Below, in pieces: positions 1,501 to 62,355 of a stretch of 64,000 bases of DNA (its first letter is position 1; each line of letters starts with the position of its first letter). The position numbers were made by a program, and so were the translations under genes. This DNA is from Bolinopsis microptera (taxonomy: Eukaryota; Ctenophora; Tentaculata; Lobata; Bolinopsidae): positions 18,717,919-18,781,918 of the forward strand of contig NC_087076.1 in NCBI RefSeq assembly GCF_026151205.1. Direction: 5' to 3'. Under the pieces are notes generated by a model. That model was not told where the DNA came from. It did no database searches and saw only the letters and a list, made by a program, of their open reading frames with translations.

Positions 1501-1685
1501 TCCAAATTGAAAATTTTAATTTTTAATTTTATGAAGGAGCAAAATTAGATGCAATCGGTTTTAAAATGCTGGTTATACCTTACATTTCAGTTATCTCTCA
1601 CAAATTCGTTTCAAAACTCATCTTTTCGCAAATTTGTATCCTTTCGAAATTTTTTTTATTTAAGTTTTACCTAAAACTTAAATTG

Positions 1686-3323
1686 ATGATCAAGTTCCCT
1701 GCAACGTTGCTTTTGTTATTAGCGAGTGGGTTCCTGGCTATATCTCGTAGTTCCACACCAAAACAACCCAATATTGTGTTTATCGTGGCTGATGACATGG
1801 GATATCAGGATGTAGGATTCAGAGGATCAAACATTCGTACTCCTAATATAGACAGACTGGCTAGGGAGGGTGTGATTCTTGAGAACCACTACGTCATGGC
1901 AGTTTGTGCTCCAGCTCGGGCAACTCTGATGACGGGGCGGTACCCTATCAGAACTGGGTTCTGGCAGGGTAACCTCCATCCAACACAAGAATTCGGGCTG
2001 GGTCTAGACGAGACTCTACTGCCCGAGATGTTGAAGAGAAACGGGTATGCTACTCACGGTGTAGGTAAGTGGCACTGTGGTACTTACACTTGGGACCATA
2101 CCCCAGCCAAGAGAGGCTTTGATACGTACTTTGGTTTGTTTTTGGGAATTCAGGACTATTACACGCACCATAGGGGTTCATGGTTAGATTTCAGAGAAGA
2201 TTATCATGATGCAGATAGTGAATTTGTGGACGATATTAGAGACGATTTGGATGGACATTACAACACTTATCTATTTACAGACAGATCACTAGAATTGATT
2301 TCGAACCATGACAAAAGTCAGCCCTTGTTTTTATATTTAGCCTACACAGCGCCCCATACACCGTACCAAGCTCCATTGGAAGATATTGAAAAATATTATA
2401 ACTCAGATTCAATTCAAGACTCCAGAAAAATATATGCGACTATGATCTCTATCATGGATGACGGGATTGGTAAGATAGCTGATGCCCTGAAAGACCGAGA
2501 TATGATGGACAACACCATCATAGTGTTCACATCTGATAACGGAGCTAGGCGTATGAGTCAGGGCAGTAATTTTCCTTTAAGAGGAGATAAGGGAACATTT
2601 CTAGAAGGAGGAGTAAGGTCACTTGCATTTGTTAACAGTCCTCTTATACAAAAGACTGGATATATAAACACCAATCTTCATCATTTCTCTGATTGGTATG
2701 CAACATTCCAGAACCTAGCCGGTGACAATCCCAAAAAACACGTCAAAACCCAATTACCTATCGACGGTGTGGACATCTGGAGTTCAATAGATAACGACTT
2801 GCCCTGCAGGGAGGAAGTTCTATTAGAATTTAGAGATTCCTCTAAGTATTTAAATGCAGTTTCTGACGTTCCGAAAACAGATTTATGTGACAATGAAAAT
2901 TGTTTCGATTTATCAGGAGTTCTCAAGTTTAAAGATGGGGAATTAACGTTTAACGCACAAGATTTCTTAGCCTTGCGATGGAAAAATTGGAAGATTCTCG
3001 CGGGGTCCACATTCGAGTTGCGAGGTTGGACCACAAAAAACAATGGAGATGGGTACATAGGAATATCCGACGGAAGTGGGGACAAAATTGATAGAAGTCA
3101 TGTATCTGGAACACTTCTATTTGATCTATCTTCTGATGTTAGCGAGGAGAGGAATGTTGCCGGTCAGTATCCTGATATTGTGTTGAAACTCCTTGCGAAG
3201 AGACAGGGTTATCTCGCTAAAGTGGTACCCTTACAACGAAGACAGTTGAGAGATGACATTGTGATGGACGATGGAGTGTGGAGACCGTGGGCCAAAGATG
3301 AACACGAACTACAGAGGCGTTAG
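1686..3323 (+). CDS. Arylsulfatase B-like secreted/lysosomal sulfatase (single exon)
   Basis: The product is predicted to hydrolyse sulfate esters, in arylsulfatase B-type enzymes typically N-acetylgalactosamine-4-sulfate of glycosaminoglycans, in the lysosome or outside the cell. The frame is open from an ATG at 1566, but I choose the ATG at 1686. It begins a normal signal peptide (a basic start, then a run of Leu, residues 1-20) and gives 545 aa, close to the ~530 aa usual for ARSB. Visible motifs are the metal-binding Asp pair D36-D37 in VADDMG, the sulfatase active-site signature CAPAR at 74-78 followed by TGRYPIRTG, GVGKWH at 125-130 and SDNG at 283-286. C74 is the residue normally converted to formylglycine. 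The core is CxPxR with Ala in both variable positions, where human ARSB-type enzymes have CTPSR. There are no introns. Arylsulfatase I/J-like identity is possible. Confidence 0.88.
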   Translation: MIKFPATLLLLLASGFLAISRSSTPKQPNIVFIVADDMGYQDVGFRGSNIRTPNIDRLAREGVILENHYVMAVCAPARATLMTGRYPIRTGFWQGNLHPTQEFGLGLDETLLPEMLKRNGYATHGVGKWHCGTYTWDHTPAKRGFDTYFGLFLGIQDYYTHHRGSWLDFREDYHDADSEFVDDIRDDLDGHYNTYLFTDRSLELISNHDKSQPLFLYLAYTAPHTPYQAPLEDIEKYYNSDSIQDSRKIYATMISIMDDGIGKIADALKDRDMMDNTIIVFTSDNGARRMSQGSNFPLRGDKGTFLEGGVRSLAFVNSPLIQKTGYINTNLHHFSDWYATFQNLAGDNPKKHVKTQLPIDGVDIWSSIDNDLPCREEVLLEFRDSSKYLNAVSDVPKTDLCDNENCFDLSGVLKFKDGELTFNAQDFLALRWKNWKILAGSTFELRGWTTKNNGDGYIGISDGSGDKIDRSHVSGTLLFDLSSDVSEERNVAGQYPDIVLKLLAKRQGYLAKVVPLQRRQLRDDIVMDDGVWRPWAKDEHELQRR

Positions 3324-31380: not shown

Positions 31381-32370
31381 ACATTTAAAATTTATTGTTT
31401 TGCGCCCTTACCTATGTAATTAAATATTGTTCAGTTTATGGAGCAGCTTACCTTGGAAGCAAAGTGGTGTTATAAAACTGCAGAAACCTTCTCTGCAATC
31501 AAGGAGGTGGTCCGCAGTTTGCGTGATGACCGTGAAGATGCCCACTTCTGAACTTTTCAATAGGTAGGTTCTGAACAAGCGGTTTCTGTAGTTGATGGGT
31601 TTTTGCACTCTACGACTTTGTCTATCGGCAGTTTCAAGCACTAAAGACTTTTATGTTCTAAATCTGCACAGAAAGCTTCTGTTTTACAGGGAAAGTAGTC
31701 AGACATTTTATTAGACCACAATTTTTCAGTTTCTAGAGATGGATGACTTTGCGAAGGAACCTGTTTGCTCTCTCCTCAAGGCTAATAATACGGGTTAAGA
31801 TACCAAATTAGAAGCAAAGGGTAATATCGAGATCAACTGGAAGACAACTCAATCATATTATTAAACAGCACGGTCATAGACAATTAAACTTCAAATCTGT
31901 TTCGGGTAATTTAAAAATGTTATTACTGTGTACGCGTCTTGTTCACTTGATGATGTTGTGAAAATAATACAATCAACGAAAATTCAATAACTTTTTAATT
32001 GGCGTTATGAAATAATTGATTACACTTTAATTTTTCAGATTATTGTCTGAGCGGTTTTAACAAGGGACCTGTTTTCAGGTTTTCTCTGTTTGTGGAATAA
32101 CAACACGTTCTACTTCCAAGGAGAAATGCGGAAACCTCTGCTCACAGATGCGATTGTTCACAACGGTTCATGCAACGGTTTAAAAAACATGATAAACAAT
32201 AAAAACATACTATAACCAGCCACCAAGTGATTTGGGGGTGATCAACTAAGTAAAACTTCTTCCTTATTTGATGCTATTGCTAGTTTCATAGCTATTCTGT
32301 TGGTCAAACTTTTCATTTTTCGCGCGAGCCAAAATGCTCGATTGCGCGGCGCGCACCGTATCCGAATATA
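31381..32370. other. Spacer between LINE C and the DNA transposon
   Basis: No supported gene or repeat. A weak minus-strand frame at 31420-31641 has no recognised domain. Confidence 0.4.
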
Positions 32371-32592
32371 CACAGTGGAAAATGTTGGCCATTTCGCAGA
32401 TTTTATTTTTGCAGCGATAATCGCACTCCCTCGCGATTATCGCGCGATAATCGACTCCTTGTGCGATTATCGCCTCATTTTGCGATTATCGCGCGGTTAT
32501 CGCCTCATTTTGCGATTATCGCCCCCCCTTGTGCGATAATCGCCTCATTATGCGATTATCGTGCGATTGTCGCCTCAATTTGCGATTATCGC
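32371..32592 (+). repeat. Left terminal region with 11 GCGATTATCGC-type sites
   Basis: Copies begin near 32413, mostly GCGATTATCGC or GCGATAATCGC, with variants GCGGTTATCGC and GCGATTGTCGC. They are separated by short spacers such as CTCATTTT. Each site is an 11-bp near-palindrome. Clustered sites next to a transposon end are typical of subterminal transposase-binding arrays. Confidence 0.8.
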
Positions 32593-33836
32593 AGTATATA
32601 ACGAGAACCTAGCTGCCACATCTACAGATCTACTGGAGCCATTTCAGATTTTCAGTGGTAACATAAGTTTATAATTAAAGTTAAAAGATTAACAGCAGTC
32701 GAATATTTAGAGTTGACAAATTGACAAAATGCTGCGTTGACAAAATGGCTACGTCAAATGATCAAATAGTTACTCTATATGATTCAATTGTAAGCCCACA
32801 TAATTTAATTTTGGTCAACGTTGATTAGCGGGTTTTCATCTTTAAGTTAATATATGATTCATCTCATGTTCGTTGACTAATTTACCTATTTCTAGCTAGA
32901 ATCCAGAATTCTTCCAAAATATCGAGAGCTCAGATTAGACTGAGAGGGGACTTTTTGTTGTGACTTCCCTAGTCACCGCTTATTGTGCGGCCGGGCGCGT
33001 CATGCCCGAACCTCGACAGCCATCATCCCGAACCGTTTATATTATCTGACAGCCGCTTTCAAATGTGTTTAACTTAACGATTAGATTTATATTTTTAGAA
33101 TACTTTTCCGTTAGGCTTATAGCATGTGATCACCTCTAGGGCTCAGGTTACCATTTTGACAGTTAATTCAATGCTCATAGTATGTCCTGGCCTTATCGTT
33201 TAACTTAGATCTGATTGCTTGTGACGAGATGATGTATTTCGTTTGTCTCTATCCATCCCGGTTACGAGGCCTATCGAGCTGGAACTGTTACTTAAGGGTG
33301 CCCCAGTGAGGCACACTTTATATATATAATAATGATAACATATACACTAATTTGATCCATCGGATATTAATATTCACGTCTAAGTATTACTGCTATGAGT
33401 ATGACATAGTGTATTCCTGCTCGCATCAGAGTTATTTCCGATGTCATCCCAATTCAGTTATCTAAGGTCTAATTTTTACCGGAGAAATTGTCAGCTCAAT
33501 CGTTATCTTCGATTCAAGTGATTCCTTGCGCTCAAAATTGTCCCGCACTCGTCAAATTACATCCTCTGAGAATTATGGCGAAGTGGACAAAATTGAATCA
33601 CCCTCGCGCGGCGACAAAAACTTGCGTGATGCGCGGTTTCAGTCGCAGTCACTACTATAACGAAAAAATTTTAATGGCAAAACATAAGCGGCGTTTTACA
33701 TAATATGTGGCGAATATCATTATTGATCAAGTAGAAAATATGAACAGAGGGTGAAGCATCACCAAATTAACAATCTTTCAATTTTAGGCATATAGCAGAT
33801 TGTCCCAAACACTAAATCCATCATGATTGACCCATT

Positions 33837-36800
33837 TCAGTCACACAGCTTGGATTTCACTTTCAACAGGTATTTCCGTGTTGCTAGCTCGCACTTTTTC
33901 ACAACTCGGTCTTCGTCATTACGAACATGGTCTGAAAATTTATGTTGCTTACATTTCTGTATTAAAGTGGTGGTCGTCCACATATTATGTACTCCCCCTC
34001 ACCTTCGATGGTTAAGTAATATATGAACGACCCCTTACACACTACTATTCAACGTGTGGAAATCAAAATTTGATCTCAAACTCAATTAATTCTAAAAGCC
34101 CAAGTTATTTCTTACTTGTCATGTGTTCGTGATTCTTAAAAAGGGAGTGAGTACTCTCACCACCTTGCTCATTGAAAGATCCAGAAAACATCCCCCAGAG
34201 CTGTATCTGCTCCAAAAAGTGGTCTTCAAGGAGATGTATCTGGTGGAGGTGGTGTTGAAATGATGTTGCAATTTTAAGAGTTCGGTTGGGCCGGAGTTTC
34301 TTATAAATATGTCATGAAAATAACTTTCTTCCAGGCTATTTAGGGGTTGGAGACAACAGGTAAAGCTATAAGAGATAACAACAATACCTTCACCGATGTG
34401 GACTGACCAAACTTTCGGTACTCTGCCAAGAAGAGGTCCCTGGCCTTGACAAGAGTTTCGATCTCACGGGGACTCTTCACTTTCCCACTTTTGCCACCGA
34501 GAACTAAGAGATCTCTATACGAGGACTTAATGCGATCCAGTGCAAGGAGCCGTTGCTGAAAGTGCAGCTTGTCCTGTGGTCTTATCTTCCTGTCAACACA
34601 GAATCGGTCAGTCACAGAAGCTCGTTATCAATACAGAATTTTAGCCTTCAATCACAAGTAAAAAGTGGTAGTTATTTCACTATAAACGACAACCATTAGT
34701 AACATGAGTTAAATCGCACTGATCTCACAGAACTTACTCGTTTTTATAGAAGTGGTCTGTCCAAAATTGAGTGTGATTGGCTTTAACCAAATATCCTGCT
34801 CTCACGCCGGTCAGGGACACACCATGGTATGCCTCAGGAGTGACATTGATGCCCCTCAAATATTGCTCATACTTCGAGGAAAGGGGCCCACTGTTGCACT
34901 TCGAGGCCACACGGTTACCTAAAATGTACAGTGCCACACTTATTTTCTTCAACTCATTATATATCAGTTTGCAAAGCCTCCAATTTTTCAATAATGAAGT
35001 GATACATTCATCGATGAATCTACATTACCTTGTTCGATGCGCAGAATCATGGCTCCAAAGTCTGTCGTACTGCTGTAGCTGTTGGGAAGAAACCCGTCTG
35101 CCACATTGCAAGCGAGTACAAAGTCTATCTCCTCGCACAGTTTACCGTACTCTGTCCACAGAAAAGTCCCGACTTTGATGTTCTAAAGGAAGTATCAAGA
35201 GTCATGACAATCAGTCAAATAATTCTAGTACCTAGTTCTATTTGCCACATATCAGGAACAGCATGAGCGGTGTTCGAATAAAAAACTGTGAGCTTCGATC
35301 ACTTACTATGTGCAAGAACGGAACAGCGACCCAGTTTATGAGATAATCAGAATCCTCCCCGAAACAGTCTGTGATGGGTCGTGAAGCAACATTCATAAAC
35401 TGGGCTTGGGATCTCGGGTTACACTGAGTCATTCTGATGTGGAAAAACTCGATACTAACAGTTTACAGAAATGGTATACATCTATCGAAATACATACATG
35501 GTATACAATATACATCGAGATAAATGTTTGTACTTTGTGAAATGAAGGAGCTGCAATCAGCGAGTTAATGACTGGTATTATAAGTTTATAAGTACCTCAT
35601 ATTAGCATCAAAGTTCTGCATAATTCCCGCAAAAGTTCGGGGCTTGCAGAGAGCTCTCTGGCTTCTGGGTACTTGCATCAGGTCTTTATGTACCTCGCAC
35701 AGTGGACAGGGGAACGTCCCATTGCTGCCCATACCCAGCATAGCCCACAGTGCCTTTGTGTCTGCACAGAGAATCATCTTCACATGTGCTCCACAGAAGA
35801 CAAAGTTCTTGAGCTGTGGTAGGTCCCGGTTAACCACCTGTAATGTTATCTGTCTCATGCCTGTCCAGTTTTTAAAGTGTAAGCTGTTAATACAAATAAG
35901 CTCAAGTTGAAGTCTAGATTTCATGAAGAAATACCTTAAATATGACCTCCATGTTCCTGCGATGGTCCGGAGCTTCGGTGTACACCAGCATTGGGTGGGC
36001 ATACGAGCTGTTACACGAAGGCTGGTTTAGCACATTGACTGCCACTTTAGTGGAGCTCGTGTCTGCGTCTACAAACAGCTTAACATGTATAGTTTTGTCA
36101 GTTCCCACATCTAACTGGCCTGGAATATATAGAATTCAGCTGGCTGTTAATGAACTATGTGATAAAAACCGCTAAAAGAACTGCCCACCTTGACCTATTT
36201 AAATCAAATTAATTTTTTGTAAACAGCTCTATAATCTCTAGAAATTTGAAATACCGGTATTCTTCAAGGTTATAAGTGTTTTGGTTAGCAGTTCCTGTCC
36301 ATCACAGTAGGCTACTGGGGTACGTCTTGCTAACAGCTCACCACTTTTAGTTTCATTTTTATCATGTGCTGCAGCTTTATGGGAAAGAGAAACCTTGAGG
36401 CTAAACTTTACTTGAAAACATTTCAAATGTTGGGATGTGATAATTGATGAAATATCGAGAGAGGGGGAAGGGTGAAAAGAAAGCGAGCAAAAAGAATTAA
36501 AGAATTATTAGTATAAATCAAGAGGCTTTCATATGAACATATTGGCACGGGTGTAGAGTTGAGCCTGTACGGAACCTAGTAGTTTCAGATCCTTGTTTAA
36601 CTTGCCGTACAGCAAGGTCATTCACTACTTTAGCCCTGGCGAGGCACATAGCTCACTCTACAACTCCGTGTCAAATGTTTCATATATACCAGCCAAGTTC
36701 ACAAGATATATCCTTGTGTTTGAGAAGAGCTCGTTAGAACTGCTTCTTTTCCCTTCAGTATCCCACAGTCTATCAAAATTAGTGTCACAAAATTGGTATC

Positions 36801-38664
36801 ATAAAATTAGTTAATAAATTAGTATCACAAATAGAGTTAATGAATTAGTGTCACAAAAAAAAGTTAGTATCACGGAACAAACATCACATAATTTTTCAAA
36901 AATTAATAATAAATTCAGTGTATTTACAAGTTTTATAGTTAAACTGAACCTCCCCAACGCTGTCGGAAAATCTCAGTCGCAGTGAGCTTCTTTTGAGAGG
37001 CCTTTTTTTTCCTCTCAGCAGCCATGCGGACTCTGGCTTCTAATGACAGATTCGGGCCCCCAGTTGTCCGCACTGATACTGAAATTAGAATGAGTGAGGC
37101 AGGGACAGGGAGGGAGGGCCAGGGAGGGAGGGCCAGGGAGGGAGAGCCAGGGAGGGAGGGCCAGGGAGGGAGAGCCAGGGAGGGAGAGCCAGGGAGGGAG
37201 GGCCAGGGAGGGAGAGCCAGGAGGGGGGTTCACTGCCTAATACCTGGATGCTGCTGAATTAATCCGTGATCGTGGTTGCACAGCACAGACTGGTGTACCG
37301 TGACTGGAACGGGACGGTCTGAAATAAATATGGTGTTAAGATTTCATCACAAATGATATAACGCATCGCCAATCTTCATAAGAGTCCTTTCTTATCAATA
37401 AAATAACTAGTTGACTTACCAAAACACCACATACATTAACTCATTTACTTTTATGGCTTAAAAATTTACCCTGGCCCATTTGAACTGACGGAGGGAGTTC
37501 GCGAGCGAGAGCGGATGGGGTCAGGGGTTCTGATCAGGATACTGCTGCAATATTTAGATGTGTTATATATCAGTTTTAAATTTGACTAAATATTGTTAGC
37601 CTGGGTACAAACATATTACATAACCCTGGCAATAACATTACAATGGAATTAAACTGCATACTAAATGACGATTTTCAACCATTTCAAAAACATTGGACAC
37701 CGGGTCATATTTATTCTGCTATGCTACCTGACGGGTGCTGGGGTCGGAGAGGGTGCTTGGTGGAGGAGGAGATTGGTCCTCATCTCCGCAATTTCCGCCG
37801 CCTTTTCGTCCAGGACATGCCGCATGGCATTGGTCACACAATCCTGAATATCACTATTTTAACAGCTTTGTTTCAACAGGGATTCAGTGGATCTCATATC
37901 ATGACAGATGAAATTTGATTGTTCATATGTGATACAGGTGCAGCTTACCTTGCAGTGCAATGCGTGCAGTGGATCTGTCTGGGTACCAGCAGCAGTAACT
38001 GGGGGATGATCCGATGCTGCTCTCTGCTTCACTGCTGCCCCCTTCCTCTTGCATTTCTTGTCAACAGCATATTTCTTATATCGTAGCTGGACCTCCCTCA
38101 CCCAATCAGAGTGTACGCCACTTTCTGAAATGTATTCATCTCCTTAATGATTAAAGAACGATTTTTACAAAAGATATATCGATCATAGTTGTCATTTGTT
38201 AAGCCATGATGTTTTGCGAGAACTTCTCTAGTTCCTAATAAGAAGTGAGGCAATGGCAAGTGATAAAAACTTATTTACCCTCGATATGGCAGAAACGTGC
38301 CACAGCTCGTTTTATTTCGGGAACCGCTTCGAGAGTAGGGAACCTGGCTCTCATGTGCCTGAAGAGTAAAATTTGGGGGGGGGGGGGGGGGGGGGGGGCC
38401 AACCATATTAAAGTATATTAAAGTATATCCCCGGGTCAAAATCGGAAAAAATCCTACATTTTAATATACTTTAATATACCTACAATTAGAAGATTTATAT
38501 AATTTCACTTACAACTCGTGCAGATTGCAGGTCGAGTCAGCAAAAATGTAGGTAAGAGGAAACAAACAAGTTCGATGTATAATAACTTACAACCAACATC
38601 TCCTGCGGAAGCCATCGGAACCAAGTGGTCTTAACTGTCGTGTTACAGTTAACCCTGCGAACAT
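33837..38664 (-). CDS. Multi-exon RNase H-like transposase (putative transposase of the surrounding element)
   Basis: Core exons, 5' to 3' on the minus strand: 36410-36255, 36119-35935, 35837-35596, 35433-35307, 35182-35029, 34918-34738, 34589-34388, 34299-34116 and 33931-33837. All nine have GT-AG borders, agree in phase and join into 507 codons without a stop. Motifs: FVDADTSSTK (candidate first Asp), ILCADTKALW (second Asp), FPCPLCE (Cys pair), EAYHG, then IHLLEDH and NEQGGESTH (candidate Glu). This order matches a widespread uncharacterised transposase-like family of cnidarians, sponges and nematodes (family recalled, not searched). Likely 5' exons: 38664-38591 (ATG, MFAGLTVTRQ), 38358-38279, 38124-37949, 37843-37728, 37544-37470 and 37318-37244, in phase. 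Exons between 37078 and ~36700, including one reading MAAERKKKASQKK, could not be joined in frame with confidence. Confidence 0.7.
37100..37222. repeat. 14-bp G-rich minisatellite (CCAGGGAGGGAGGG)n
   Basis: About eight copies with GG/AG variants, lying in a putative intron of the transposase gene. The + strand carries closely spaced GGG runs, so it has G-quadruplex potential. Confidence 0.85.
38375..38398. repeat. Poly-G run beside a splice acceptor
   Basis: Twenty-four G on the + strand (poly-C in the transcript), 17 bp upstream of the acceptor of the exon ending at 38358. It acts in place of a normal pyrimidine tract. Run length is likely to vary or be misread. Confidence 0.85.
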
Positions 38665-39659
38665 TTCTGTCCTGCTTCCACTCATGTTCTCACTAATGTG
38701 ATAATCGATATGAACGTGCTTAATTTCGTTCTTTATAACAACAAATGCAATCATTTAATTCGATCGAGCTGTCAAGCAGATTACGGTATTAGGTGAATAG
38801 TGTGGCCATTGGTAACGACAATAGACAAGTCACTTGGTGACATGATACCGATTACCGCACGTGTGTAAGTTGTAACATCTTATACACTCTTACAGAGATA
38901 TATCTATATTCGATCCAAGCACTCTCACTTTTGAAAACTGAAGTCGAAGAAAATATTCTGATCCAGGTCACACTAAGAGGTACAAATCATAACAAGTAAA
39001 GTTGGCTGGTAACTAAGCGCTAAGTGAGCGCCCTAGTAGCGCTCGATTCATAATTTGATTTTCGTATAGTTCAAATCCAACAAAAGTGCGCGGCTCACCG
39101 CGCGTGGCAAACTTGAAATGCAGTAATGAACTCCGTGTACTATTTGAATATAATATTGATATAATTGCCATCGGCAGACAGAATGAACAATATGTATTGA
39201 TTCAGATTCTTATTCATGTATAAGATTTATTTCCATAACGGAATTATGAGATAATTTTCGAATTACAAATTGAATAGAAGTTTATGTTTATGGTTTCGGG
39301 TTTGTCGTAGGGGCCCAGGGGTCATTCGTAAATAGCGTTTGCGTCCGTTAAACAGGGGGAAGAGGAATGAAATTGGAAATATGAAATGTTGATGCTTGTG
39401 TTTACTTTCGCCTTTGAAGGTTATAGTTTGATTGTAAAATGGAATTGTGAGGCCAGGGTCAAACTCAAAATGAAAATGCAGGATCCGCTGCGCGCGGCGT
39501 CAGGCACAAGGTTTAATATATATATCAAATATAATATTTTTTATTGCTGTTCAACCATAATTTTGATTCAGTGCAGTGTTGAATGTTGATGCAGTATATG
39601 ACTCACAGTATGTCAAAATTAACTCATCATTTCACTATTGCATTATCATCGCAGATTTT
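38665..39659. other. 5' region of the transposase gene inside the element
   Basis: Presumed promoter and 5' UTR. No other gene recognised. No TATA box assigned. Confidence 0.35.
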
Positions 39660-39846
39660 AGCGATTATCACTATTTAATGGCGATTATCGTGCATTTAGC
39701 GATAATCGCCAATGTTAGGCGATAATCGTGCGCAATAATCGCATGTTAGGCGATAAACACGCGATAATCGCATATTGGGCGATAAACACGCGATAATTGC
39801 ATTATCGCTTTTATGCAAGAATAAAATCCAGATATTTTCCACTGTG
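39660..39846 (-). repeat. Right terminal region with GCGATTATCGC-type sites
   Basis: Nine to ten degenerate copies (GCGATTATC, GCGATAATCGC, GCAATAATCGC, GCGATAAACAC, GCGATAATTGC), then GCTTTTATGCAAGAATAAAATC and a terminal CCACTGTG. This is the left end inverted. Sites are more diverged than on the left. Confidence 0.75.
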
Positions 39847-40099
39847 TATATCGATCGAATGTACGCCGAAATCGATTGTATCACGTGGTGACCCCCACTG
39901 TGACACTGTCGCTTCACTATTATATATCGTCTTCGACGATACAGGGGGAGCCGCGCACTTGGTGCGCGGCGGGTCATACAACGTATGACATTGACAAGAA
40001 ATCGAAACTCGGAGCCGGCCGCGCAGCCGAATTTTGGATGATGATTAATCACTCTACACTCGACTCACGTGACTTTCTCAACCCGTTCTATAGCTGGCC

Positions 40100-46800: not shown

Positions 46801-49800
46801 CAGTCCAGTCCGAATATCTATCTGGATCACATTCTATCAGGTCGTAGTCAGGTTCTCCATTCATCATCCATCTGATAGAGAAATTGCAAGGTGTGAGCTA
46901 TGGAAATCATGTTTACCAGTTTTATTTTACATTATGAGACCCACGAGATTGAATTACATGCTAAGCTATCCAAACTGTACAAAAACAGGTAATATAGCAC
47001 GGAATTTAGTGGGAAAACTGACCTAGCAAGGTATTTTCCAGCACCTCCAGAATGTATAATACCGTAGCCGAACCCGACGGCTAGCCAGTAATTTGTTAAG
47101 TGGTGAGTTGGTCCCATCATCGGTAATATGTCGGGAGAATATGTAATCGGTCCTGCTATCACGCTCTGCGGGAATGTTTTGTTATTTCTAAAAGTTCAAA
47201 ATTTCACCGAATTATAAGGAAGGCAGGTGAAAAATAGTAATAAAGGTGATGGTTCTTGTATTGGTGTAGGTGGTTTTTTTGCATTTTTTCCGCCTCGAAA
47301 TGGTGGAAAAACCTACAACTTGGAATCTCTAGGAAGAATTGTTCAAGTAAAGAATCGTTCAAGTAAAGAGTTCAATGCGTAATTGGATATTTTAAACATT
47401 ATTGAATATTTAAATATTCCGGGAAAATATTCTGGGAATTTTAAAATTATTCAAGGTATAATATAACCGGGTTGGATAAATAGTTCAAGGGGGCTATATT
47501 TATGAGTCGCATTTGAACTTGATTTCTCTTGGAGAATTTCTCTTTAGACTCTTAACTTGCGAACAAATTGAAGCAGCAAACTTTAGGCTAGAAACTTTAT
47601 TGAATTGAAATAATCATTCCACGTAACAACGTCTTCTTCAGTTCTGTAATAAAATTGTTAAACATGTGTAAAAATTAACGACGGAAAGAAATTTAAAATA
47701 ATATTAAGACAAAAACAGAGAAATAAAATTTACGAAATATGACCCAAAAATGTAATTGCAAAAAATGTCAAAACAACAAAAAATACGACAAGAAGAAATG
47801 TAAGCTAATACAACTAAATACTGTACTACTCATGATACTAAACTAATTAGTAAACGTAAAACTGGTTGTTCAGAATTCACAGTTCATGTGTAAAAACTAA
47901 TGATAAAATCAGCACTTAAGCAACGATAACTCGGTTGTCATGGTTACTATCCAAAAATTCCTATCAATACATTATTTACTAGTTAAACATCGACTAAATA
48001 TTTGTACAAATAACTCAACTCAGAACGATCATTCATTTCAGGACTTAATCTCAATATATACATCGCTTCTACAATCTTTCTACGAACAGTTTTACTCTGT
48101 AAATCAAGTAACTTAAAAGATAAAACTGGGGTTCGGTTAGGATGTAGAGATGCGTAGTGCTGTCCAACCCCATTCTCTGGATGTGCTCTAGGATTCCTAG
48201 CAGCCTGTCTGTGCTCCATCAGACGAGCATGGAGGCTTCTCTCAGTTTCCCCACAGTATCTCTTACCACATAACTCGCAAGTAACTAAGTAAATAGCTCC
48301 TTTTGTTGAGCATGTTGTTCCTGTGAGTCTAGGGCAGATCTCACAATTGTTGGGGTTACCAAGGTCACAAGTCTTCTTATCCAGTGGACGAGAGCGGCAG
48401 AAGATGTCCTGTAACTTCTTACCAGGTGTAAAAATAACTCTGATGGGGAGTTTGTTAGATTTGATGTAGTTGCGAATCTTATTACAAACTGTTCCAGAGA
48501 TGAATGGTAAGGTGAGTGGGACAGAGTCAGGTGTGGTTTGACGTCTTCTCCTAGTCCTCCTGTTCCTTGCGTTATGACTCAGAGGTTGGTGTCCATTTTT
48601 CTTTAAGAGATCATCGATGATCTTAACTGAATGATCGAGTTCCTGGGGTCCTGAGGAAGCAATGGTGGCATTACGGTAGAAGTTCTTCTTACACTCCTCC
48701 TTCACTGAGTCCGGGTGGTGTGACTTCTGGTGTAATGTTATCCCCTTGTTCTGGGTTTTCCTGTAGAATCTGTGGTGCACTTTTCCTTCCTCATCGATCC
48801 GGATTTCCGTACTCAGGAACGGGACAAAATCCGCAGGGGTAGACGGGAACTCGATCTCCCACTTGATTCTGTTATCGGGATCCTGGTCGGCTATGCGTTG
48901 TAACATATCCAGTGCTTCTTCTCTGGATTTGGCTAAGGAACCAGCATCATCTACATACCGTTTGTATAAGAACCGAACAGGGTTACTGATGTAATAACTG
49001 TCTAAATATATACTATTACGCTCGAATTTCCACATTCTAATAATCGCTACAGGAGGGGATGGTCTACAACCCATGAATAAACCTAAAAGTTGTTTATAAA
49101 GTCTCCCATTAAATGTAAAATAAGAATTCGTCAAAACTACTGTAAAGATACCTCTAATTTCTAATAAACTTAAACAATACGTACTTAACTTACTCCAATG
49201 TTCTTCTGCAAATTCAATAACTGTCTCAATACACTCATTGATATTCAAATTCGTATACAAAGCTGATACATCCGCTGTAAAGAACTGTAACCTTTAAGTT
49301 CACTCTCTGGTAGCCTACAGAGGATGTCCAGGTGGCTGTAGATATCGTACATATGAGTAGGTACTTCTCTCAACAAAGGACTGATAATGTCGGTAACTAA
49401 CCAAGCCAACTTCTCTGTAGGTGAGCCACAACACGATACGATTGGTCTAACTTTCATATCCTCCAAGTTGATACGAGAGTAGTCAGTATCAGGTGGGAAC
49501 TTGTGTGTCTTCACCAGGGTGTACATAGTAGGTAATGTAGAGTACGAGCTAATAAATAAATCCTCAATACGTGAGTCTAATTCCATATGGTTACTACAAC
49601 TTTTAGGTTTATTCATGGGTTGTAGACCATCCCCTCCTGTAGCGATTATTAGAATGTGGAAATTCGAGCGTAATAGTATATATTTAGACAGTTATTACAT
49701 CAGTAACCCTGTTCGGTTCTTATACAAACGGTATGTAGATGATGCTGGTTCCTTAGCCAAATCCAGAGAAGAAGCACTGGATATGTTACAACGCATAGCC

Positions 49801-52800
49801 GACCAGGATCCCGATAACAGAATCAAGTGGGAGATCGAGTTCCCGTCTACCCCTGCGGATTTTGTCCCGTTCCTGAGTACGGAAATCCGGATCGATGAGG
49901 AAGGAAAAGTGCACCACAGATTCTACAGGAAAACCCAGAACAAGGGGATAACATTACACCAGAAGTCACACCACCCGGACTCAGTGAAGGAGGAGTGTAA
50001 GAAGAACTTCTACCGTAATGCCACCATTGCTTCCTCAGGACCCCAGGAACTCGATCATTCAGTTAAGATCATCGATGATCTCTTAAAGAAAAATGGACAC
50101 CAACCTCTGAGTCATAACGCAAGGAACAGGAGGACTAGGAGAAGACGTCAAACCACACCTGACTCTGTCCCACTCACCTTACCATTCATCTCTGGAACAG
50201 TTTGTAATAAGATTCGCAACTACATCAAATCTAACAAACTCCCCATCAGAGTTATTTTTACACCTGGTAAGAAGTTACAGGACATCTTCTGCCGCTCTCG
50301 TCCACTGGATAAGAAGACTTGTGACCTTGGTAACCCCAACAATTGTGAGATCTGCCCTAGACTCACAGGAACAACATGCTCAACAAAAGGAGCTATTTAC
50401 TTAGTTACTTGCGAGTTATGTGGTAAGAGATACTGTGGGGAAACTGAGAGAAGCCTCCATGCTCGTCTGATGGAGCACAGACAGGCTGCTAGGAATCCTA
50501 GAGCACATCCAGAGAATGGGGTTGGACAGCACTACGCATCTCTACATCCTAACCGAACCCCAGTTTTATCTTTTAAGTTACTTGATTTACAGAGTAAAAC
50601 TGTTCGTAGAAAGATTGTAGAAGCGATGTATATATTGAGATTAAGTCCTGAAATGAATGATCGTTCTGAGTTGAGTTATTTGTACAAATATTTAGTCGAT
50701 GTTTAACTAGTAAATAATGTATTGATAGGAATTTTTGATTAGTAACCATGACAACCGAGTTATCGTTGCTTAAGTGCTGATTTTATCATTAGTTTTTACA
50801 CATGAACTGTGAATTCTGAACAACCAGTTTTACGTTTACTAATTAGTTTAGTATCATGAGTAGTACAGTATTTAGTTGTATTAGCTTACATTTCTTCTTG
50901 TCGTATTTTTTGTTGTTTTGACATTTTTTGCAATTACATTTTTGGGTCATATTTCGTAAATTTTATTTCTCTGTTTTTGTCTTAATATTATTTTAAATTT
51001 CTTTCCGTCGTTAATTTTTACACATGTTTAACAATTTTATTACAGAACTGAAGAAGACGTTGTTACGTGGAATGATTATTTCAATTCAATAAAGTTTCTA
51101 GCCTAAAGTTTGCTGCTTCAATTTGTTCGCAAGTTAAGAGTCTAAAGAGAAATTCTCCAAGAGAAATCATAATATAACCGGAAGATTTAATTTCATGGAC
51201 GCGGACTTAACCAGTTTATTTCACTATCAAAAAAAAGTTAACAGCTAACCGTAATGTCTGTTTCCTGCATTATTGGCAGCAGGTCCATAGCATGCTCTAT
51301 GCACTTATCAAGACGATCTAAATCACTTTCCCAGAGTTCTTTACCGAAGCCTTTAGGAACGCCGTTATCATACCAGTCCTCCTGAATCTTCATCTTCTCT
51401 GGTTCCTCGTACGGTCCAAACAGGAGTCCTGGTTTTGTAAACTTTGTCACACTTTTGTAATACAGTAGAAACACAAATACAAGAATGTTTATTTCAGTAC
51501 GTGTTATGTTACCAACATTTTTTACTAGAGAGTAATTTCATTTAAGACAAACAGGTTAGTGCACAAGCTAAAGACACGTACAGTGCTACATTGTATGCAG
51601 CTTTTCTTAGTGACCCATAGCTCTAATATTTCTGGTTGACATGATCTACATTCAAGAATTCAAAACTTATTCTTTTAGCTTTAGGCTAATTGAGATTTTA
51701 ATTTATCCAACAATTTCACAATAACAATAACACACATTACAATATTGTACTTATAAATAGTAACCTGTTCGCTCCTGTCTCGCGTAGTAAGAACCTCTCA
51801 GATCCCGAATGCCTGGAATCTGACGACCGTTGTGGTTCTTCTGCCAGTCCTCTAAAAAGGGAACACTTGCAGTTACCAAGTACCTGTAATTAGTGTTGAT
51901 TAGTGTTAATTAGTATTAATTAGTAAGATTGTGCGCTAATATTTGGAAGATGAGAAGCCAACATGATACTACAATTTTGAATCACACTCATTAATAATTG
52001 AACATTTTGTCTTCACTGTCATAAATTTTAACTCATTTGAAAACCAATACGTACTGATGGTGTACCGGAACAAGAGGTAGATCCAGTCCCGCCATCTGCC
52101 CGATTTCTCGAGCGTGGAATCCGGCTGCGTTGACCACTTGCTTTGTGTTTATTTTTCCAGAAGGTGTATCCACCTATCAAAGTTGTCATCATTAACGATT
52201 AATAGCACATATAGCAGAGACACAATAAACAAATACACTAAAATACGAGATAGTCCATAGATTGATTTTGGAGTAATTGGAGTGGTTAACAAAGGTCAAG
52301 AAGTCTTACCTCCCATGTTCCGTCAGCCCTCTGTTTAGTGCCAGTGACTGGACAATCTTGTACTAATGTTGCTCCATACATTCGGGCCCCTTTAGCAAAC
52401 GCCTACATGAATGTTCGTTACAACGCATTTTTGTTAGAACAAATGTTTTAAACGTAATAAAGATTTGGATTTGATGGTGTTACTCTATAAGTTATCGCTA
52501 CAGAACCCACCATAGTAAGACTGTAAGGGTCGGTATGACCATCACCAGGGCAGTATAATCCCCCGTGAATTCCATCCATGTTCAGAAGAGGATGCATCTC
52601 CGCTATGCTGTCGGGGTCAACTAGCTCCTGGTTGGCTCGATGCCACTGATGTCGGGTCATCATGTATCTGAACAAGAAGTTGGTTCAGAGGTAATCATGA
52701 CCATTATCAGTGCTAAATGAATCAAGACGAATTCAATCAGATGCAATTTGTATTTGTGTCACCGATTACTGCATAAACTATGTATATTATTACAGTTTCA

Positions 52801-61082: not shown

Positions 61083-62099
61083 TTATAGCACTATTGAATT
61101 ATTCTGAACCTTAACTTCAACCTTTGACTTGACAGGATCACGCTTGACTCTTAAGTATCTGAAGGAACATTTTGGTGTCAAAGCTATGTAAATGATCGGA
61201 TTTAGCGTGGATATTATTGATGGAATAGCTAGACAAAGCAAAAAATATGAAATCCCTTCCTTTAAACCGATTCCACTTTCACTCCCTCTGACTTTAACAG
61301 GGATAATTGCATAGAACCCAAGTATTATGATACTTCCAACATTAGTGATCAGAATCTTCAGGCTACTTCTCGTTTTACGTCTTCTTGGGCCACCTGATTT
61401 CGGTTTCAGATGACATTGCACTAGCTCGTAGATAGTAAGGAATGATGTTGAAATTGCACCTACTTGTAACACCCATGTCACCCCAGTCATCAGAAAGAAA
61501 AAGGTGAGGCTGCTTATTCTAATACCTAGAACTCTTGGATCAAAATTCCAGGCAAGACTTGTTATGGGCAGTACTATGGGGATTGAGTTTTCAGACTCAC
61601 GAACATCCAGCATTGCACATCCAGCAATAACAGGAAGAATGACCAGTGACAGGAATAATCCAGACATTACCAGTCTTATTCTTGGTCGTTGGAGAGGATA
61701 CCTTATTTGATAATACCGACTCATAGCAAGAAAAGCTGTTACGTTGCTCGGTGCTAAAACGACTGTCCAGCCAATGATACCATGAACTTTTTCTCCGAGA
61801 TGGGCGATCCTTATTTTCTTGTAATATTCCTCGTTACATGATAGTTCAACACTGTTCCTGCATTCCTCCTCTTTTTCTTTTAAGATGGCTATTGCGAAAT
61901 TAGCTGTTAGCACCCATGCTGTGATGAAATCAGCAGCAGATAGAGTAAGGTACAAGCTCCTTGCTAAAGAGTTCTTCTTGCGAGCCTCATGAACAAACAC
62001 CAATCCATTCAGTAAAGTGCAGATCAGAACAACACAAATACAGGATACTCCTATGTAAATATCTGGTGAAGTTATTCCTCCTTCACTGAAAACAGCCAT
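61083..62099 (-). CDS. Rhodopsin-like (class A) G-protein-coupled receptor, orphan, single exon
   Basis: 338 aa with seven hydrophobic segments at about 14-38, 46-72, 107-128, 144-165, 193-224, 248-270 and 283-307. Class A landmarks: N31 in TM1, D57 in TM2 (LSAAD), SRY at 127-129 where most receptors have DRY, and NPIIY at 300-304 in TM7. C80 or C88 in the first extracellular segment could form a disulfide. There is a basic third loop (PRRRKTR) and a short cytoplasmic tail. It presumably sits in the plasma membrane and couples to G proteins. The ligand cannot be guessed. Intronless receptors of this kind are common in cnidarian-type genomes. Confidence 0.82.
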   Translation of the reverse strand: MAVFSEGGITSPDIYIGVSCICVVLICTLLNGLVFVHEARKKNSLARSLYLTLSAADFITAWVLTANFAIAILKEKEEECRNSVELSCNEEYYKKIRIAHLGEKVHGIIGWTVVLAPSNVTAFLAMSRYYQIRYPLQRPRIRLVMSGLFLSLVILPVIAGCAMLDVRESENSIPIVLPITSLAWNFDPRVLGIRISSLTFFFLMTGVTWVLQVGAISTSFLTIYELVQCHLKPKSGGPRRRKTRSSLKILITNVGSIIILGFYAIIPVKVRGSESGIGLKEGISYFLLCLAIPSIISTLNPIIYIALTPKCSFRYLRVKRDPVKSKVEVKVQNNSIVL

Positions 62100-62355
62100 C
62101 TCCTCCTTTTCGCTGAGAAAAATGTTACTTTGTTTTACAGATTACCAAGTCATAACTTTGTATTGATTATAAAAATAACCTCGAAACATAAGCAATATTT
62201 ACAGCAGTAAATACAAACTATCAATAACAGAATTATTACAGCTCTAACTCTAACTCTGCTAATAAGCACTTACAACATTTAAAAAGTAAACACTTAAAAG
62301 ATTTAAATATAAAATATCTCATAAGTTCTGTCCACACCTTGGGTAATTGTCAGAT

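Follow-up and report, generated by a model that had tools for sequence, protein, structure and literature searches.

An internally deleted DNA transposon, apparently nearest to Chapaev, with palindrome arrays at both ends and a second gene in the ctenophore Bolinopsis microptera

We describe here a DNA transposon of the ctenophore Bolinopsis microptera which spans positions 32371..39846 of a 64,000-nucleotide stretch of the genome (NCBI RefSeq assembly GCF_026151205.1, contig NC_087076.1, positions 18,717,919 to 18,781,918 of the forward strand). This whole stretch is referred to as the window, and plain coordinates are given within it. On balance, we are inclined to regard the copy in the window as an internally deleted, non-autonomous element of the CMC group, nearest to Chapaev, in which the product of a second gene, termed gene 1, would coat the palindrome arrays as a dimer and pair the ends of the element. 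Three families were compared, namely F1, the family of the window element itself, its sister F2, represented by locus L023, and a third family, F3, represented by L026.

A first-pass annotation, made from the letters of the window alone, had proposed a 7.5-kb DNA transposon with these borders, inverted termini and palindrome arrays at both ends, and all of this is borne out. In the window sequence, the inverted termini CACAGTGG and CCACTGTG lie exactly at 32371 and 39846, the 13-bp terminal repeats are identical at both ends, TATA stands on either side, and the arrays comprise 11 and 7 sites, respectively. Perfect 4-bp duplications flank eight of the ten F1 copies in which both ends were placed (agac, tgtc, aaag, gtat, tctg, aact, agca, tata); of the remaining two, L021 has no duplication and L020 an altered right end. 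One element per sister family was checked, with GTTC in L023 (F2) and GCCG in L026 (F3), which brings the total to 10 of the 12 elements with both ends examined; L017, the right end of which has diverged, was omitted from this count. The features at the ends are as follows.

32367..32370, no strand: left target-site duplication TATA (the same four bases at 39847-39850)
32371..32383, plus strand: left terminal inverted repeat CACAGTGGAAAAT, 13 bp, identical to the inverted right end
32414..32592, no strand: left array, 11 sites GCGATWATCGC (up to 1 mismatch), spacing 11, 19 or 21 bp
39661..39800, no strand: right array, 7 sites GCGATWATCGC (up to 1 mismatch), upstream of both genes
39834..39846, minus strand: right terminal inverted repeat ATTTTCCACTGTG
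39847..39850, no strand: right target-site duplication TATA

Further copies with the same ends, on which the first-pass annotation had made its proposal depend, are readily identified: in the 264.65-Mb genome the left 330 bp recur in 12 near-identical copies and the right 347 bp in 12 as well (one matched over 290 bases), plus one at 74%. Fourteen F1 loci were compared, the window copy included. The longest of these, L013 and L014, measure 8,695 and 8,694 bp and are the only ones to carry all 18 predicted exons without difference, L013 being itself the reference, while internal deletions differ among the other copies. Ten copies show 2-6 substitutions and 1-10 gaps relative to L013 over 3.6-8.7 kb, that is, 0.02-0.14% substitutions, which indicates that the element has spread recently; the comparison leaves out alignment pieces below 150 bp and loci L017, L011 and L019, and the list of single exon differences likewise leaves out L017. 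At this last locus (G000:C7:16813000-16821540), the left part is identical to the other copies and the right part is 90% identical with 133 gap openings, being either an older piece or a poorly polished part of the assembly. A gap of just 7 bp separates L014 and L015 (G000:C6:17679872-17692221), which point the same way, and since each has its own duplication (gtat and tctg), they represent two separate insertions a few bases from each other. Between families the divergence is much larger, with 63.5% DNA identity over the longest match of L013 and L023.

Relative to L013, the window copy lacks 1,225 bp after position 36394. The deletion takes out transposase exons 1-4 including the start codon and cuts 20 nt from the 160 of exon 5; in addition, one extra base in exon 5 of gene 1 causes a frameshift. 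Thus, the element is not complete, as it had appeared on first inspection, but a deletion derivative which, judged by its sequence, is non-autonomous. As it keeps both ends and both arrays, it could move only in trans by means of an intact copy.

The single intron-rich gene of the first-pass annotation likewise had to be revised: many splice-compatible exons with CMC-type motifs are indeed present on the minus strand, but they are best read as two genes, with 18 predicted exons together in the longest copies. The 18 blocks were chosen from minus-strand frames conserved between L013 and L023; frames on the opposite strand matched as well, mostly more weakly. All blocks join by GT-AG introns except for the fifth and sixth, between which no good junction was found (best score -3.1), and since the fifth block extends to a stop codon in F1 as well as in F2 and the sixth can open with a start codon, two genes are predicted. 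At two of the 16 in-gene junctions, those of gene 1 exon 3 and transposase exon 12, the second-ranked acceptor was used because it fits the sister protein. In the longest copies, the transposase (gene 2) is predicted to comprise 695 amino acids in 13 exons, and gene 1 to encode 201 amino acids in 5 exons. Protein-guided spliced alignment onto L023 recovered the same 13 transposase exons with 521 of 695 residues identical; a spurious last piece added by the aligner to each sister gene was dropped. The codon alignments contain 520 of 693 identical residues for the transposase and 96 of 188 for gene 1 (F1 against F2), in which the length differences in exons 2-4 (3, 12 and 9 nt) are each a multiple of three. 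By the Nei-Gojobori method, pS is 0.737 and pN 0.144 for the transposase (pN/pS 0.20, bootstrap 0.16-0.23, 693 codons), and 0.918 and 0.352 for gene 1 (pN/pS 0.38, bootstrap 0.32-0.46, 188 codons), where pN and pS are to be taken as proportions and not as rates, because synonymous sites are saturated. Fewer amino-acid-changing than silent differences in both predicted reading frames show that both genes are under constraint. What F3 (L026) has kept is the catalytic part of its transposase and, of gene 1, the N-terminal part. The F3 alignments leave out the C-terminal half of gene 1 and the first ~325 positions of the transposase, the latter because the aligner ran into inserted reverse-transcriptase-like and other sequence with stops. 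The predicted parts of both genes in the window copy are listed below.

33837..33931, minus strand: transposase exon 13 with stop codon (predicted)
34116..34239, minus strand: transposase exon 12, with H(4)H motif HLLEDH and GGES containing the candidate catalytic E
34388..34589, minus strand: transposase exon 11 (predicted)
34738..34918, minus strand: transposase exon 10 (predicted)
35029..35182, minus strand: transposase exon 9 (predicted)
35307..35433, minus strand: transposase exon 8, ending in the LH motif (FLHI)
35596..35837, minus strand: transposase exon 7, with candidate second D (LCADTKALW) and C(2)C motif CPLC
35935..36119, minus strand: transposase exon 6, with candidate first D (LFVDAD), within the DUF1280 match
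36255..36394, minus strand: transposase exon 5, cut, 140 of 160 nt left
36394..36395, no strand: junction of the 1,225-bp internal deletion relative to L013
36939..37078, minus strand: gene 1 exon 5 with stop and 1-nt insertion (coordinates read by eye)
37728..37843, minus strand: gene 1 exon 4 (predicted)
37949..38124, minus strand: gene 1 exon 3 (predicted), holding GTQTD
38279..38358, minus strand: gene 1 exon 2 (predicted)
38591..38685, minus strand: gene 1 exon 1 with ATG (predicted)

Two low-complexity tracts lie within predicted introns of gene 1: a 14-bp minisatellite of 9.4 copies at 37096-37225, preceding exon 5, and a run of 24 G residues, counted by eye, at 38375-38398 in the first intron.

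The 18 sites of the two arrays are the only matches to GCGATWATCGC (up to 1 mismatch) in the window, all of them inside the element, as compared to an expectation of 0.4 and a maximum of 2 in 20 simulated 64-kb sequences (first-order Markov). Throughout the 265 Mb, the paired motif occurs 60 times per strand and its reversed control not at all; this total equals 5 pairs per left end times 12 left ends, and among the matches listed (100 of 120, 50 per strand) all fall within ten known left ends. The corresponding pattern of the sister families, paired ACGATWATCGT, occurs 26 times per strand (control 1), and 24 of the 26 are located at ends of F2 or F3 elements; the exceptions are C9:13832199 and C5:23559328, of which the second has an end fragment at a distance of about 11 kb. 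Accordingly, the arrays are not independent insertions of a short repeat, which the first-pass annotation had named as the outcome that would undo its proposal: the F1 total fits the 12 left ends, and nearly all sister pairs lie at element ends. At the first of the two exceptional positions (G000:C9:13832199-13832242), a pair of ACGATTATCGT palindromes stands with no located element nearby and perhaps belongs to another family. In the literature, the palindrome was found in one unrelated Salmonella study.

Sites selected for a CGATWATCG core are bounded by G..C in 14 of 18 cases in F1 and by A..T in 9 of 13 in F2, a family-specific outer pair that rests on these two families because the F3 arrays are mixed (A..C 4, A..T 3, G..C 2, G..T 1 of 10). 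Within F1, the spacers between palindromes are unlike at the left and right ends (0.25 in direct and 0.36 in inverted comparison), while the palindromes themselves are alike at 0.91 identity, a value that is partly circular because the sites were picked by motif; this combination speaks against whole repeat units having been copied from end to end. The sites mostly follow each other in steps of ~10 bp, with phasing near 9.8 bp. Over six arrays, the combined phasing statistic is 0.873, as compared to a mean of 0.475 and at most 0.734 in 5000 random placements, none of which scored as high. The significance is overstated, however, because tandem duplication within arrays makes the sites non-independent.

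Gene 1 was found in F1, in F2 and, by its N-terminal part, in F3. A genome search with it yielded at least 70 exon matches, and 68 of 70 lie either inside located copies or on the inner side of a located left end, within ~9 kb of it except for the farthest, which stands ~15.5 kb away between two array ends on C6. The two matches outside are C2:7026229, a rearranged F2 relative with no end motif in the 8 kb examined, and C2:7099320. The sequence GTQTDP in exon 3 (37949-38124, minus strand) is conserved in F1 and F2 and resembles a binding motif of the LC8 dynein light chain; LC8-type binding at this site could favour gene 1 dimers. The comparison of gene 1 with solved chains gave 18 rows at E ~1, all of them RhoA, which were taken as chance.

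As to the transposase, the motifs CPxC (C(2)C), FLHI (LH), H-x4-H (H(4)H) and the E of GGES are invariant in all three families. The first D in LFVDAD, covered in two of the three families, the second in LCADTKALW and the E in GGES are candidate DDE residues, assigned by eye and guided by the RAG1 spacing, and it is on these motifs that the protein may be called RNase H-like. Transib elements produce a 5-bp duplication. The 4-bp duplication found here departs from this value, and comparison of the transposase by sequence with solved chains, RAG1 and Transib included, returned no credible match, the chance matches obtained (one, then two) being set aside. The ends begin with CACAG, and neither they nor the 4-bp duplication agree with the CACTA termini and 3-bp duplication of CACTA elements. 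PMC4079192 describes Chapaev as having CAC/GTG termini, a target duplication of 3 to 4 bp and the motifs C(2)C, LH and H(4)H, and all of these are present here, although the ends are not exclusive to Chapaev and the DDE residues that accompany the motifs were placed by eye. DUF1280 (PF06918) is the best Pfam match of the transposase; as stated in part of PMC3985635, this family corresponds to putative Chapaev transposases, and in part of PMC7642931 it is counted in Hydra and others. Thus, of the earlier suggestion of a "CMC or Transib/RAG-like" element the CMC part stands, and with fair confidence the transposase appears nearest to Chapaev of the CMC group, neither Transib/RAG nor clearly CACTA. 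Two further Pfam rows, Ribosomal_L13 (0.093) and DUF7637 (0.11), each with a single transposase member, were set aside. No match to the transposase was obtained for DUF1258 (PF06869), the Mirage transposase, at E up to 10, or for the RING models in Pfam; in the Chapaev proteins described in part of PMC4411706, a Chapa zinc finger is followed in two subgroups by a RING finger. In viral contigs, 130 stretches matched a pattern and no relative was confirmed, none was found in phages, and Rfam returned nothing in the window.

The arrays together with the second gene suggest, by analogy, that the gene 1 protein docks on the arrays to help the element move. According to this model, the DDE transposase would cleave the DNA at the CACAGTG termini and integrate the element with a stagger of 4 bp, while the gene 1 protein, as a homodimer, would recognise the CGATWATCG palindrome. 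Its dimers would line up next to each other along a single face of the helix, coat the phased arrays of either end and bring the two ends into contact for the transposase to act on. The position of the right array, upstream of the genes, makes it probable that the protein also represses its own promoter. The window copy would be mobilised in trans by an intact copy. The proposal is based on the pattern of divergence between F1 and F2: the outer 35 bp of the left end show 2 differences and the transposase is 75% identical, while gene 1 (~50%) and the outer base pair of the arrays have changed more. Conserved transposase and ends alongside a faster-changing second protein and its arrays resemble the situation in plant CACTA elements, where TnpA binds the subterminal repeats and is required along with TnpD, as reported in PMC2613891.

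Several observations weigh against this interpretation, with regard to class as well as mechanism. A genome-wide search for an empty site of the window copy yielded nothing beyond the copy's own two flanks and a dispersed repeat in the right one, so that the borders rest on the 4-bp duplication; the repeat itself, at ~39876-39979, has 981 candidates in the genome, 40 of which were scored. Both informative Pfam matches of the transposase are sub-threshold, DUF1280 with E 8.2e-5 and 22.8 bits against a cut-off of 25, and Transpos_assoc (PF13963) with E 0.0011 and 19.6 bits against 27.7. Each matches two of the three family members, for DUF1280 at E up to 1, so that membership at the curated cut-off was not reached. 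In a genome-wide DUF1280 search (2 candidates scored), one locus exceeded the cut-off and no copy of this element came up; in favour of the assignment, the transposase profile matches that locus over the same stretch, with E 3.5e-5 among its 256 open frames, the next frame having E 3.5. Ends and duplication are shared across a wider group and by themselves leave other CMC lineages possible: part of PMC12730594 has EnSpm also accepting CAC..GTG ends, and CMC relatives as a group giving duplications of 2-5 bp. Because of the sub-threshold score and the search that missed the element, we speak of "nearest to Chapaev" and not of a settled member. That this search missed the element and that CAC..GTG ends also occur in EnSpm, together with the Transpos_assoc similarity and a layout of two genes and subterminal repeats reminiscent of TnpA/TnpD (PMC2613891, in part), might be taken to place the element with CACTA (En/Spm), as an animal member, or with another CMC lineage. 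We consider this improbable, as DUF1280 is the better match of the two, the ends start with CACAG, the duplication is 4 bp as compared to 3 in the EnSpm examples of PMC12730594 and PMC2613891, as far as these describe them, and Transposase_21 (PF02992) gave no match at E up to 10, a search in which the HMMER filters drop most matches above ~0.1.

With regard to the mechanism, the mixed outer bases of F3, the circularity in the palindrome identity and the non-independence of the phased sites, as given above, have to be counted here, and neither Pfam nor PDB sequences gave anything credible for gene 1, in which no DNA-binding domain is recognisable. A Chapaev-type transposase might therefore bind arrays and ends alone, through its N terminus, a Cys/His-rich stretch of its own which carries the weak Transpos_assoc match, with gene 1 being a passenger or serving another role, for example against host silencing. 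Such a division of labour appears rather unlikely to us, since the left end and the transposase are conserved while the outer pair of the arrays and gene 1 have changed more, and gene 1 is retained, at least partly, in all three families. That the arrays are instead sites for a host transcription or silencing factor, unrelated to the mechanics of transposition, is hardly to be expected where the total of the paired motif equals 5 times the 12 left ends, the matches listed all lie in known left ends, and the motif differs between sister families.

Elsewhere in the window, the open frames at 47983-49293 (minus strand) and 49483-50706 (plus strand) share a long identical stretch in opposite orientation and, judged by eye, reverse-transcriptase- and GIY-YIG-like sequence; they look like an inverted pair of Penelope-like elements. 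Two further frames, at 1527-3323 (plus strand) and 61083-62141 (minus strand), look by eye arylsulfatase-like and seven-helix-receptor-like and fit an animal host.

Among known systems, Chapaev shares with the element described here the 4-bp duplication, CAC..GTG ends, C(2)C, LH and H(4)H motifs, an animal host and the sub-threshold DUF1280 similarity, whereas the second gene, the palindrome arrays, the 13-exon transposase gene, the lack of a RING match and the DUF1280 score below the cut-off set our element apart. By titles and abstract openings, neither palindrome arrays nor a second gene came up for any Chapaev element in the literature; the family may already stand in Repbase. Plant En/Spm with its TnpA and TnpD (PMC2613891, in part) is similar in the proposed organization, i.e. 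a conserved transposase acting at the ends, a faster-changing second protein and family-specific subterminal repeats, and differs in its CACTA ends as compared to CACAGTG, in the duplication (4 bp here), in the lack of a Transposase_21 match here and in gene 1, which is not detectably related to any Pfam family. Transib and RAG1 are, according to part of PMC12730594, relatives sharing the C(2)C and H(3-4)H motifs. It might be speculated, more tentatively than for the mechanism itself, that the element stands for a distinct animal CMC lineage which combines a Chapaev-like core, a CACTA-like N terminus and a co-evolving dimeric reader of helically phased palindromes, two-component like En/Spm and either kept from a CMC ancestor or acquired independently. 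If the proposed mechanism is true, two-component transposition by a conserved cutter and a faster-changing array reader would extend beyond plant CACTA to an animal Chapaev-type element, and with two copies whose predicted exons are all in order, and a sister family that has another palindrome, it can be tested directly whether protein and motif are paired.

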